Translations under genes and position numbers: made by a program
NCBI RefSeq assembly: GCF_007671685.1
Contig: NZ_VCNL01000001.1
Coordinates: 186,001-250,000, forward strand
DNA: 64,000 nucleotides
DNA from: Halorubrum salsamenti
GTDB lineage: Archaea; Halobacteriota; Halobacteria; Halobacteriales; Haloferacaceae
Direction: 5' to 3'
Part shown: positions 6,253 through 9,650 of the stretch, in pieces
Position numbering within the stretch: position 1 is the first letter of the stretch
How the letters are laid out: every line of letters starts with the position of its first letter
The notes under the pieces: generated by a model
Seen by the model: only the letters and a program-made list of their open reading frames with translations
Told to the model about the DNA's origin: nothing
Database searches by the model: none

Positions 6253-7474
6253 ATGACAGACATCACGGAGGCTTCGTCGGACACCCCGGCGGATCGAGTT
6301 CTTCCAGGGCACGATAGCTTCTAACATCGATATCGGTCCTGTACGGATCTTCGACACGACGTTACGAGACGGTGAACAGTCACCACGGACGTCGTTCAGC
6401 TACGACGAGAAACGCCGCATAGCGGCGACGCTGGACGACATGAACACCCACGTCATCGAGGCTGGGTTCCCGGTGAACTCGGACGCGGAGTTCGAGGCCG
6501 TGAGCGATATCGCCGCCGCGACGGACACCACCGTCTGCGGGCTGGCGCGGGTCGTCGAGGGCGACATCGAGGCCGCCATCGACTCCGGCGTCGAGATGGT
6601 CCACGTGTTCGTCTCCACCAGCGACGTACAGCTGGAGGATTCGATGCACGCGACCCGGCAGGAGGCGAAACAGCGCGCGATCGACGCCGTCGAGCAGGTG
6701 AAAGACGCCGGCGTCGAGTGCATGTTCTCGCCGATGGACGCGACGCGGACCGACCCCGACTACCTGCGGGAGATCGTCGAGGCGGTCAGCGACGCGGGCA
6801 CCGACTGGATCAACATCCCGGACACGTGCGGCGTGGCGATGCCGACCAGCTTCGGGAAGACCGTGAAGGCGGTCGTCGAGGCGACCGACGCCCGCGTCGA
6901 CGTACACACCCACGACGACTTCGGGATGGCCGCGGCGAACGCGGTCACCGGCTTCGAGAACGGCGCGGAGCAGGCGCAGGTGTCGGTCAACGGGATCGGC
7001 GAGCGCGCCGGCAACGCCGCCTACGAGGAGGTCGTGATGGCGGTCGAATCCGTGTACGGCGTCGACACCGGCATCGACACGACCCAGATCACCAAGCTGG
7101 CCCGGATCGTCGAGGAGGCCTCGGACATCCCGGTGCCGGCGAACAAACCCGTCACCGGGCGGAACGCGTTCGCCCACGAGTCGGGCATCCACGCCGCGGG
7201 CGTCATCGAGAACGCCGACACGTTCGAGACCGGCGTGATGACCCCGGAGATGGTCGGTGCCGAACGCGAGTTCGTGCTCGGGAAACACACCGGCACCCAC
7301 AGCGTGCGCAAGCACCTGGTGGAGGCCGGCTTCGACCCGAGCGACAGCGAGGTCCGGCGCATCACCAAGCGCGTCAAGGAGTACGGCTCCGGCAAGCGCC
7401 AGGTGACCGCCGGCGACGTCGAGCGGTTCGCCGAGGAGGCGGACGTCGACCGCGAGGAGGAGGTCCGGGTCTGA
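6253..7474 (+). CDS. leuA: 2-isopropylmalate synthase, with apparent N-terminal frameshift
   Basis: First step of leucine synthesis: condenses acetyl-CoA with 2-oxoisovalerate. The HMGL-like barrel is clear: IFDTTLRDGEQSP (catalytic D and R), HVIEAGFPVNSDAEF, HTHDDFG (metal His) and NGIGERAGNAAYEE. The frame carrying these motifs has no ATG, GTG or TTG between its last stop (6254-6256) and DTTLRDGEQ; its first ATG is 6440, which would delete the catalytic motif. An ATG at 6253 with good promoter spacing opens a frame reading MTDITEASSDTP and then stops at 6324. The downstream frame reads RIEFFQGT, like haloarchaeal LeuA N-termini as remembered. One base less (for instance in the C run 6284-6287) joins the two. 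The protein would be about 405 residues and lacks the C-terminal LeuA regulatory domain, so feedback control may be absent. Confidence 0.85.
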
Positions 7475-7596: not shown

Positions 7597-7602
7597 TTTA
7601 TA
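7597..7602 (+). promoter_or_regulatory. TATA box of the ilv leader
   Basis: TTTATA centred about 28 bases upstream of the ATG at 7628. This spacing predicts transcription starting at or within a few bases of that ATG, giving a leaderless small ORF ahead of ilvB. Confidence 0.5.
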
Positions 7603-7627
7603 CCCCGGACGTGTTGGTGGAATCGAG

Positions 7628-7702
7628 ATGCGACGGCACACCGTGACCCCGACGACCGCCGACGTCGCCGGAGCCGTCGCGCCGATCATTGTAGGGGTAT
7701 AA
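7628..7702 (+). CDS. putative 24-residue leader peptide upstream of ilvB
   Basis: A small ORF from ATG 7628 to TAA 7700-7702. The peptide begins MRRHTVTP and ends APIIVGV. The last codons are ATC ATT GTA GGG GTA; ATT and GTA are unusual in this GC-rich genome, and they call for isoleucine and valine, the products of the pathway downstream. The stop codon falls in the loop of an 8-bp perfect hairpin (7690-7697 with 7704-7711). It sits 139 bases before the acetolactate synthase gene. By analogy with bacterial ilv leader peptides, ribosome progress through these codons could sense charged tRNA. That role is inference; the ORF, its promoter spacing and the hairpin are directly visible. It could also be a chance ORF. 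Confidence 0.5.
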   Translation: MRRHTVTPTTADVAGAVAPIIVGV

Positions 7703-7789
7703 TCCCCTACACCACACCTTCCTCACCGACGCCACGCATCGACGAACGCCGACGGGCGAGCCCGTTCTCGTCCGGCGACCCGGCGTTCG
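7664..7789 (+). promoter_or_regulatory. structured leader ahead of ilvB with competing stems
   Basis: Three perfect pairings can be drawn: TGTAGGGG 7690-7697 with CCCCTACA 7704-7711; CGAACGCCG 7743-7751 with CGGCGTTCG 7781-7789, enclosing an ACGGG/CCCGT hairpin; and GTCGCCGGA 7664-7672 (inside the small ORF) with TCCGGCGAC 7771-7779. The last crosses the second, so the two cannot both form as simple helices. There is no T-run, so an archaeal intrinsic terminator is not evident; control of translation or of a downstream terminator would have to be tested. Confidence 0.45.
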
Positions 7790-7841
7790 GATCGACCGAC
7801 TCTCACACCCGCGAGATGCACCACCGAACATCACCACGACA

Positions 7842-9650
7842 ATGAGCGACACAGCAGCACAGCCACGAGACGACGACGCGGAGGGCGCGGCCGAGTCCGC
7901 CGACGCCGACGCCGACGATCCGAGCGACGCGGACGGTCCCACCGCGGGACCGGTGTCGACCGGCGCCGAGTCGGTCGTCGCCGCGCTGGAGGCCGCCGGC
8001 GCGGAGACCGCCTTCGGCGTGCAGGGCGGCGCGATCATGCCCGTCTACGACGCGCTGTACGACTCCTCGATCCGCCACGTGACGATGGCCCACGAGCAGG
8101 GTGCGTCCCACGCCGCCGACGCCTACGGCGTCGTGGCCGGCGAGCCCGGCCTCTGTCTGGCGACCTCGGGACCGGGCGCGACCAACCTCGTTACCGGCAT
8201 CGCCGACGCCGACATGGACTCCGACGCCATGTTAGCGTTGACCGGGCAGGTGCCCACCGAGTTCGTCGGCAACGACGCGTTCCAGGAGACCGACACGGTC
8301 GGCGTCACCCGCCCGATCACGAAGCACAACTACTTCGCGCACGGCGCGGACACCGTCGGCGACACCGTCGGCGAGGCGTTCGAGTTGTCGCGCGCTGGAC
8401 GGCCCGGCCCGACGCTCGTCGACCTGCCGAAGGACGTGACGCAGGGCGAGACGGACGAGACGCCCGGGCCGGCGACGCCGCCGGCCGGAACCGACCCCGA
8501 CCCGAACGCCGACGCCGACGCGGTCGAGGAGGCCGCTCGCGCGATTGAGGCGGCCGAACGACCCGTGTGCCTGTTCGGCGGCGGCGTGATCAAAGCCGAC
8601 GCGAGCGACGCCGCGCGCACCTTCGCGCGGACGTACGGGATCCCGGTGACGACGACGATGCCCGGCATCGGCTCGTTCCCCGAGGACGACGACCTCTGTC
8701 TCTCGTGGGCGGGGATGCACGGTACCGGCTACGCCAACATGGCGATCACCCACACCGACTGCCTGATCGCGGTCGGTACCCGGTTCGACGACCGGTTGAC
8801 CGGCGGGATCGACACGTTCGCGCCGGAGGCCGAGGTCGTCCACGTCGACATCGACCCGGCCGAGATCTCGAAGAACGTCCACGCCGACTACCCGCTGATC
8901 GGCGACGCCGAGCGCGTCCTCGACCAGTTGACCGCGGCGGTCCGCGAGGCGCCCGACGCCGAGGCGTGGCGCGAGCGCTGCGCGGAGTGGAGGGAGACGT
9001 ACCCGCTCACGTACGCGACGCCCGAGGACGAGCCGCTGAAGCCGCAGTTCGTCGTCGAGGCGTTCGACGAGGCCACCGACGACGACACGATCGTGACGAC
9101 CGGCGTCGGCCAACACCAGATGTGGGCCTCCCAGTTCTGGACGTACACGGAGCCCCGGACGTGGGTCTCCTCGCACGGCCTGGGGACGATGGGGTACGGC
9201 GTGCCCGCCGCGGTCGGCGCGCGCGTCGCGGCCGACGCGATGGGCGAGCCCGACCGCGACGTGGTGTGTTTCGACGGCGACGGCTCCTTCCTGATGACGA
9301 TGCAGGAGCTGTCTGTGGCCGTCCGCGAGGACCTCGACGTCACGATCGCCGTGCTGAACAACGAGTACATCGGAATGGTGCGTCAGTGGCAGGACGCCTT
9401 CTACGAGGGCCGCCACATGGCCTCGGACTACACGTGGATGCCCGAGTTCGACAAGCTCGCCGAGGCGTTCGGCGCCCTCGGGCTCCGCGTCGACGACTAC
9501 GACGAGGTCGCGCCCGCGGTCGAGGAGGCCCTCGACTACGACGGGCCGGCCGTGATCGACTTCCACGTCGATCCGGAGGAGAACGTCCTGCCGATGGTGC
9601 CGAGCGGCGGTGCGAACGGGAAGTTCGCCACCGCGGAGGACCAGCTATGA
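7842..9650 (+). CDS. ilvB: acetolactate synthase large subunit
   Basis: Thiamine-diphosphate enzyme that joins pyruvate with pyruvate or 2-oxobutyrate, the first common step of valine/leucine/isoleucine synthesis. 602 residues, with a ~45-residue acidic N-terminal extension. AFGVQGGAIMPVYDAL and AHEQGASHAADAYG carry the ThDP-activating Glu; the C-terminal ThDP/Mg motif runs from GDGSFLMTMQEL to NNEYIGMVRQWQ. FAD-domain segments (GTRFDDRLTGG) are present. The stop overlaps the ATG of ilvN (ATGA), so the two subunits are coupled. Confidence 0.96.
   Translation: MSDTAAQPRDDDAEGAAESADADADDPSDADGPTAGPVSTGAESVVAALEAAGAETAFGVQGGAIMPVYDALYDSSIRHVTMAHEQGASHAADAYGVVAGEPGLCLATSGPGATNLVTGIADADMDSDAMLALTGQVPTEFVGNDAFQETDTVGVTRPITKHNYFAHGADTVGDTVGEAFELSRAGRPGPTLVDLPKDVTQGETDETPGPATPPAGTDPDPNADADAVEEAARAIEAAERPVCLFGGGVIKADASDAARTFARTYGIPVTTTMPGIGSFPEDDDLCLSWAGMHGTGYANMAITHTDCLIAVGTRFDDRLTGGIDTFAPEAEVVHVDIDPAEISKNVHADYPLIGDAERVLDQLTAAVREAPDAEAWRERCAEWRETYPLTYATPEDEPLKPQFVVEAFDEATDDDTIVTTGVGQHQMWASQFWTYTEPRTWVSSHGLGTMGYGVPAAVGARVAADAMGEPDRDVVCFDGDGSFLMTMQELSVAVREDLDVTIAVLNNEYIGMVRQWQDAFYEGRHMASDYTWMPEFDKLAEAFGALGLRVDDYDEVAPAVEEALDYDGPAVIDFHVDPEENVLPMVPSGGANGKFATAEDQL

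Follow-up and report, generated by a model that had tools for sequence, protein, structure and literature searches.

A candidate leader-peptide attenuator upstream of the ilvB operon in haloarchaea

Ribosome-based attenuation by leader peptides has long been known in bacteria. In the trp, his, and ilv attenuators of Escherichia coli, the leader peptide is rich in the product of the pathway, and the control codons lie beside an RNA structure. The nearest relatives in design of the leader described here are the actinobacterial ilvB(N)C leaders (Corynebacterium, Mycobacterium, and Streptomyces; PMC1262725, PMC11857589), in which a short Ile/Val/Leu ORF likewise overlaps a hairpin upstream of ilvB. 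Searches of open-licence papers returned no report of ribosome-mediated or leader-peptide attenuation in Archaea, and a start-site study of Haloferax judged control by structured leaders not to be typical of haloarchaea (PMC4983044).

The locus analysed here lies in a 64-kb stretch of DNA (hereafter the window). Comparison with other haloarchaea suggests, with a probability of roughly 0.6, that its ilvB operon is controlled by a haloarchaeal leader-peptide attenuator. An initial annotation had read the region upstream of ilvB as a leaderless Ile/Val leader peptide with competing stems; the leaderless-type leader and an attenuator-like role are retained in our reading, but the competing-stem mechanism is not.

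Organization of the ilvB leader and operon

In the window, ilvB is followed by ilvN, ilvC, leuC, leuD, and leuB, and leuA is located upstream of ilvB. The ilvB, ilvN, ilvC, and leuC genes gave profile matches above the curated cut-offs; the best match of the leuB-like isopropylmalate dehydrogenase gene was below the cut-off, as was that of leuA, which was assigned by homology. The features identified are as follows.

7597–7602, + strand: TATA element TTTATA, seen in the sequence, predicted to set the transcription start on or beside the uORF1 ATG
7628–7702, + strand: uORF1, predicted leader peptide MRRHTVTPTTADVAGAVAPIIVGV followed by a stop codon (ORF translation); same ORF in 79/79 loci and, genus-wide, in 73/80 plus three variants
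7685–7699, + strand: control codons ATC ATT GTA GGG GTA (I I V G V), from the codon comparison of 92 loci
7690–7711, + strand: small hairpin of 8 bp (arms 7690–7697 and 7704–7711) with a 6-nt loop containing the stop codon (7700–7702)
7708–7727, + strand: pyrimidine-rich tract TACACCACACCTTCCTCACC, 3' of the hairpin, 15 nt G-free
7743–7789, + strand: 9-bp stem (7743–7751/7781–7789), a Halorubrum-level feature only, with 91.7% of its pairs retained across 20 Halorubrum leaders and little covariation
7816–7845, + strand: uORF2, MHHRTSPRQ and a TGA overlapping the ilvB ATG (ATGA); an ATG ORF with such an overlap in 70/92 loci
7842–9650, + strand: ilvB, acetolactate synthase large subunit (TIGR00118, 694.8 bits against a cut-off of 538)

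Several of these elements had been described in the initial annotation and were found exactly as given there, i.e. the TATA box before the ATG (7628–7630), the 24-codon ORF ending in PIIVGV, and the perfect 8-bp repeat, one arm of which is formed by the last codons of uORF1. The ATT and GTA codons, which it had called unusual for this genome, are indeed rare, accounting for 2 of the 73 Ile codons and 5 of the 212 Val codons, respectively, in the neighbouring genes of the window.

Promoter position was compared in 92 non-redundant loci, no two of which agree at >70% of the 120 positions surrounding the site. A unique A/T peak (mean A+T, 0.84) is present at −32 to −27 from the uORF1 ATG, and no promoter-like A/T peak precedes ilvB or uORF2 in these loci. 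Since this peak has the usual archaeal spacing, uORF1 is predicted to be leaderless and to lie at the transcript 5' end, so that its 24 codons would form the predicted 5' end of an ilvBNC-leuCDB transcript. Among Haloferax protein-coding transcripts whose start has been mapped, 72% are leaderless (PMC4983044).

Conservation of the leader ORF, hairpin, and pyrimidine tract

Of 391 genomes sampled from the class, 390 contain ilvB. A search for ilvB gave 80 haloarchaeal loci, 79 of them with upstream DNA, and in all 79 an ATG ORF ending in IVG(V/A) or a close equivalent (VVVGAV in one locus) stands at the same place. A second set contained 80 upstream regions from approximately 80 genera and 11 families; uORF1 with an in-frame GTAGGGG was identified in 73 of them, or in 76 when three variants are counted. 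The shared motif, found at the same place in the 79/79 and 73/80 regions, is a hydrophobic residue (nearly always Ile) followed by Val-Gly. These sites were located by the string GTAGGGG, but its near invariance is not a search artefact, because 79/79 and 73/80 regions were recovered in this way and those failing it were inspected by eye. Conservation of the ORF ending in relatives, which the initial annotation had named as a check, thus extends well beyond what could be known from the window.

Among the seven regions lacking an in-frame GTAGGGG, three keep the leader design in altered form. The L110 leader has a GTG start, ends in GIVRAR, and has re-paired arms (CGGGCC/GGCCCG); that of L128 ends in SIRVRAAMAH with arms re-paired as GGGCC/GGCCC; and that of L136, a second ilvB copy, ends in SIIGASY with arms GGGGCT/AGCCCC, GTA being replaced by ATT (Val to Ile). 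Codon replacements at the site are mostly other branched-chain amino acid (BCAA) codons, namely this ATT, CTC in L140, and GTA in L052 and L147. The leader is absent from 4 of the 80 regions, L130 (genus g17) and L143–L145. The latter three come from f5 and f11, the families that diverge most, and in them another coding region appears to reach ilvB. As a separate observation, a leuA-type leader ORF, MPHIEGTSVVPADRVLPRAA and a stop codon, stands in place of the ilvB leader in L130.

In the 92 loci, the residue preceding the conserved Val is Ile in 88, Val in 2, Phe in 1, and Leu in 1. The Val is encoded by GTA in 92/92 loci, and the Ile by ATT in 62 and ATC in 26. The proportion of branched-chain residues climbs from 8% at position −12 to 99–100% at the hairpin. 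The Ile and Val-GTA codons adjoin the left arm of the hairpin, and uORF1 is conserved at this end only. One tRNA normally reads both ATT and ATC; the free exchange of these codons beside an invariant GTA would therefore fit sensing of the minor Val tRNA at the codon level, although the invariant GTA could instead be a nucleotide motif.

A hairpin of at least five pairs built on GGGG/CCCC is present in 92/92 loci, and the stop codon is located within its loop or right arm in 88 of them. With a single exception, the loci have a GGGG–CCCC gap of 5–9 nt, mostly 8 nt. At the first inner position, C-G is found in 76 loci, T-A in 6, T-G in 4, and G-C in 1, and 5 loci are unpaired there. Unconstrained folding gave a mean probability of 0.96 for local pairing of GGGG, and 95% of the hairpin pairs are kept in the 20 Halorubrum leaders. 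All 92 loci were collected with the GGGG/CCCC motif, which is invariant among them, so that covariation can be seen only at a few pairs and in L110, L128, and L136. The pattern GTAGGGG-N3-9-CCCC occurs at this site alone in the window (one reading per strand; 0.14 expected from shuffles); elsewhere in the genome it is not enriched, with 10 matches against 20 for a reversed-pattern control. The 214-nt leader as a whole is more stable in folding than 200/200 shuffles (z = −2.95).

The hairpin is followed by a tract with a G content of ≤15%, mostly 0–5%, at +2 to +17 and a T content of 52–64% at +12 to +14. The median G-free run in the 92 loci is 15 nt, whereas that of a control stretch is 2 nt. 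The tract does not amount to a strong T stretch, with longest T runs of 1–2 in 66/92 loci and 3–5 in 26/92. Outside Halorubrum, the conserved module stops ~17 nt after the hairpin. Termination sites in Haloferax consist of a T stretch followed by C; 503 of them have a hairpin ≤10 nt upstream, and one such hairpin gave 59% termination when tested in vivo (PMC7237163). The G-free tract with its T peak agrees with these sites, but its T content is below that of a T5C terminator; a predicted terminator function of the hairpin and tract is plausible. The archaeal factor FttA, which is thought to cause polarity (PMC12548453), might aid termination at the leader.

The leaders of Haloferax, Natrinema, and related genera (e.g. 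L071) also carry a CGCA[CT]CGTTTTC sequence at about +28 to +37, which resembles the Haloferax T-stretch-C termination motif. It was found in 37/92 loci, mostly at these positions, against ~7 in shuffles. As it is clade-limited and missing from the leader in the window, it was left out of the model.

Proposed mechanism and alternative explanations

The leader combines a short ORF at the predicted 5' end of a biosynthetic operon transcript, pathway-product codons clustered at the regulatory structure (BCAA share, 67% in the last five codons of uORF1 vs 16% in its body; 92 loci), and an RNA structure overlapping the control codons, as is expected of an attenuator. The comparison shows that the ORF, its control codons, the hairpin, the tract, and the position of the promoter are conserved; from these we infer that uORF1 is translated, that ribosomes stall on it, that transcription terminates, and in which direction control works, as follows. 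Transcription would begin at the uORF1 ATG, so that the mRNA would be leaderless and its 5' end would receive the first ribosome. Given ample Ile-tRNA and Val-tRNA(UAC), this ribosome would reach the stop codon within the hairpin and depart; the hairpin could then form and, together with the G-free tract, cause pausing or premature termination, either intrinsically or with the help of FttA/aCPSF1. Under Ile or Val shortage, the ribosome would stall at the rare ATT and GTA codons and block the left arm, no hairpin would form, and RNA polymerase would proceed into ilvB.

The initial annotation had proposed a classical trp-type attenuator, in which a stem between uORF1 and the downstream leader (7664–7672/7771–7779) competes with the 9-bp stem 7743–7751/7781–7789. 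Both 9-bp inverted repeats are perfect in this sequence, but only 68% of the crossing-stem pairs are kept in the 20 Halorubrum leaders, compared with 92% for the other stem; several are mostly broken, and one is present in just 7 of the 20. Outside Halorubrum, no counterpart of the crossing stem was seen, and sequence conservation between families is absent beyond ~+17. The pairing check set out in the annotation was therefore borne out for the small hairpin (92/92 loci) and failed for the crossing stem; a search for conserved, mutually exclusive antiterminator and terminator stems in Halorubrum and across families found none. The crossing-stem switch was rejected as not conserved even within Halorubrum, and a trp-type arrangement is very improbable. 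Ribosome position on uORF1 might instead shift long-range pairing at the uORF2/ilvB start and thereby control reinitiation from uORF2. The overlap of the uORF2 TGA with the ilvB start (70/92 loci vs 8/92 in a control frame) suggests that ilvB is translated by termination–reinitiation, a process reported as established in Haloferax (Huber et al., as cited in PMC12548453), and an SD-like sequence is present in 66/92 loci. Against such translational attenuation, a stalled ribosome, mimicked by keeping the RNA unpaired as far as 13 nt beyond where the Val codon begins, shifted the accessibility predicted for the ilvB start by only 0.014 (sd 0.099) in 90 loci, and the families share no conserved sequence from the tract to uORF2. 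This explanation is unlikely, and translational sequestration of the ilvB start was rejected because constrained folding gave no consistent effect. It is more likely that the stalled ribosome itself masks the small hairpin than that a long-range rearrangement takes place, since the crossing stem is unconserved and masking leaves the predicted accessibility of the ilvB start unchanged.

Two further explanations would dispense with attenuation. If TGTAGGGG-N-CCCCTACA were bound by a DNA-binding regulator as its operator, or by an RNA-binding protein, the ORF would be incidental; GTAGGGG is nearly invariant beyond coding needs, and the site is an inverted repeat. An operator would have fixed half-site spacing and no dependence on frame, but the gap varies over 5–9 nt, the frame is maintained across leaders with 12–50 codons before the Val and retained at 153/153 upstream sites collected, and replacements are mostly other BCAA codons with arms that re-pair. 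We consider a protein-binding site rather improbable. It is still harder to regard uORF1 as a functional microprotein, a highly improbable reading: the ORF is conserved throughout the class, but as protein only in its last 3–4 residues, and the body varies greatly in length and lacks a codon-position signal. In Halorubrum leaders, heterozygosity in the body is 0.36, 0.33, and 0.29 at codon positions 1–3, respectively, which indicates no protein-level constraint, and GC3 is 0.75, compared with 0.93 in genes. An unconserved body is what leader peptides have, and leader-peptide attenuation remains our preferred reading.

Two side observations concern the same region. An 8-bp pairing absent from the initial annotation (7630–7637/7673–7680) joins the first codons of uORF1 to the middle of the ORF; 98% of its pairs are kept in the 20 Halorubrum leaders, and it might influence leaderless initiation. 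The uORF2 start codon has been lost in the Halorubrum aquaticum/halodurans group.

Other haloarchaeal leaders and comparison with known systems

A second candidate leader peptide, an independent parallel to that of ilvB, was identified upstream of pheS (phenylalanyl-tRNA synthetase alpha). In the same genome as the window, the ORF MALERAGSGIASGVDGDAFGFFFA, followed by a stop codon, is located at L181:736–810 (G000, contig C19), and a Phe run just before the stop of such an ORF was found there and in most of 15 other genomes tested, the relatives' leaders ending in GFGFFF(A/AR/LTA), e.g. GFGFFFAR. A 26-aa uORF is listed for the Haloferax pheS 5'-UTR, with no attenuator reading attached (Babski 2016, PMC4983044). 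No leaders with cognate residues were found before hisG and ileS, and trpS gave no consistent cognate leader, with one weak hit in 16 loci.

The leuA frame in the window (6257–7474) has no usable start of its own. An ATG ORF at 6253–6324, MTDITEASSDTPADRVLPGHDSF and a stop codon, overlaps it one frame back, and a +1 shift is needed to enter leuA. Such an overlapping ATG ORF, with conserved codons CGA GTT CTT, is present in 148/148 haloarchaeal loci, and an ATG in the leuA frame in only 14 of them. The conserved Leu codon CTT is located at 6301–6303, and a +1 shift at this codon, when hungry, is a candidate route into leuA. The start problem and leucine-dependent slippage have already been raised for HVO_1510 (leuA2; PMC8305020).

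These leaders could belong to a general haloarchaeal layer of charged-tRNA sensing by leader ORFs of leaderless transcripts (Ile-Val for ilvB, GFGFFF for pheS, and the conserved Leu-CTT at the +1 frame change for leuA), acting through archaeal termination and recoding and independent in origin of bacterial attenuation, a proposal that we regard as evenly poised. If it holds, Archaea would gain their first known case of ribosome-mediated attenuation. A leader common to ~80 genera would demonstrate amino-acid control by coupling of early transcription to translation in a domain whose RNA polymerase is eukaryote-like. Close relatives of Haloferax volcanii carry the leader, which makes it directly testable, and it offers a natural assay of transcription–translation coupling and of FttA/aCPSF1 action.

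No Rfam cis-regulatory family (T-box, riboswitch, or bacterial leader) matched the leader at 7597–7841, three sub-threshold hits (E = 1.8–2) lying elsewhere. The short leader ORFs with mapped start sites in long Haloferax 5'-UTRs (Babski 2016, PMC4983044, Table 2, including pheS and a tryptophan--tRNA ligase) are similar, but ilvB is absent from that table and no leader-peptide or attenuation interpretation is given. Haloferax leuA2 (PMC8305020) shares the pathway, leuA being adjacent to ilvB in the window, and its out-of-frame ATG led to the speculation that it is translated only without leucine; it differs in having a frameshift or atypical start within the gene and no separate leader with a hairpin. 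As in the E. coli trp, his, and ilv type, the ilvB leader has a product-rich peptide and control codons adjoining an RNA structure, and judged from its sequence it would work like leader-peptide attenuation, but it has one conserved hairpin, and the conserved antiterminator/terminator pair that was looked for was not found. For the actinobacterial ilvB leaders, a point against our reading comes from Streptomyces coelicolor, in which, as stated in PMC1262725, changing the candidate codons of a similar leader was without effect; this cautions that leaders of such a layout may work in another way. The actinobacterial leaders have poly-U runs 3' of their hairpins, as in bacterial terminators, whereas the haloarchaeal leader has a C/U tract free of G, belongs to a transcript predicted to be leaderless, and shows a fixed Ile-Val(GTA)-Gly motif and a stop codon within the hairpin.
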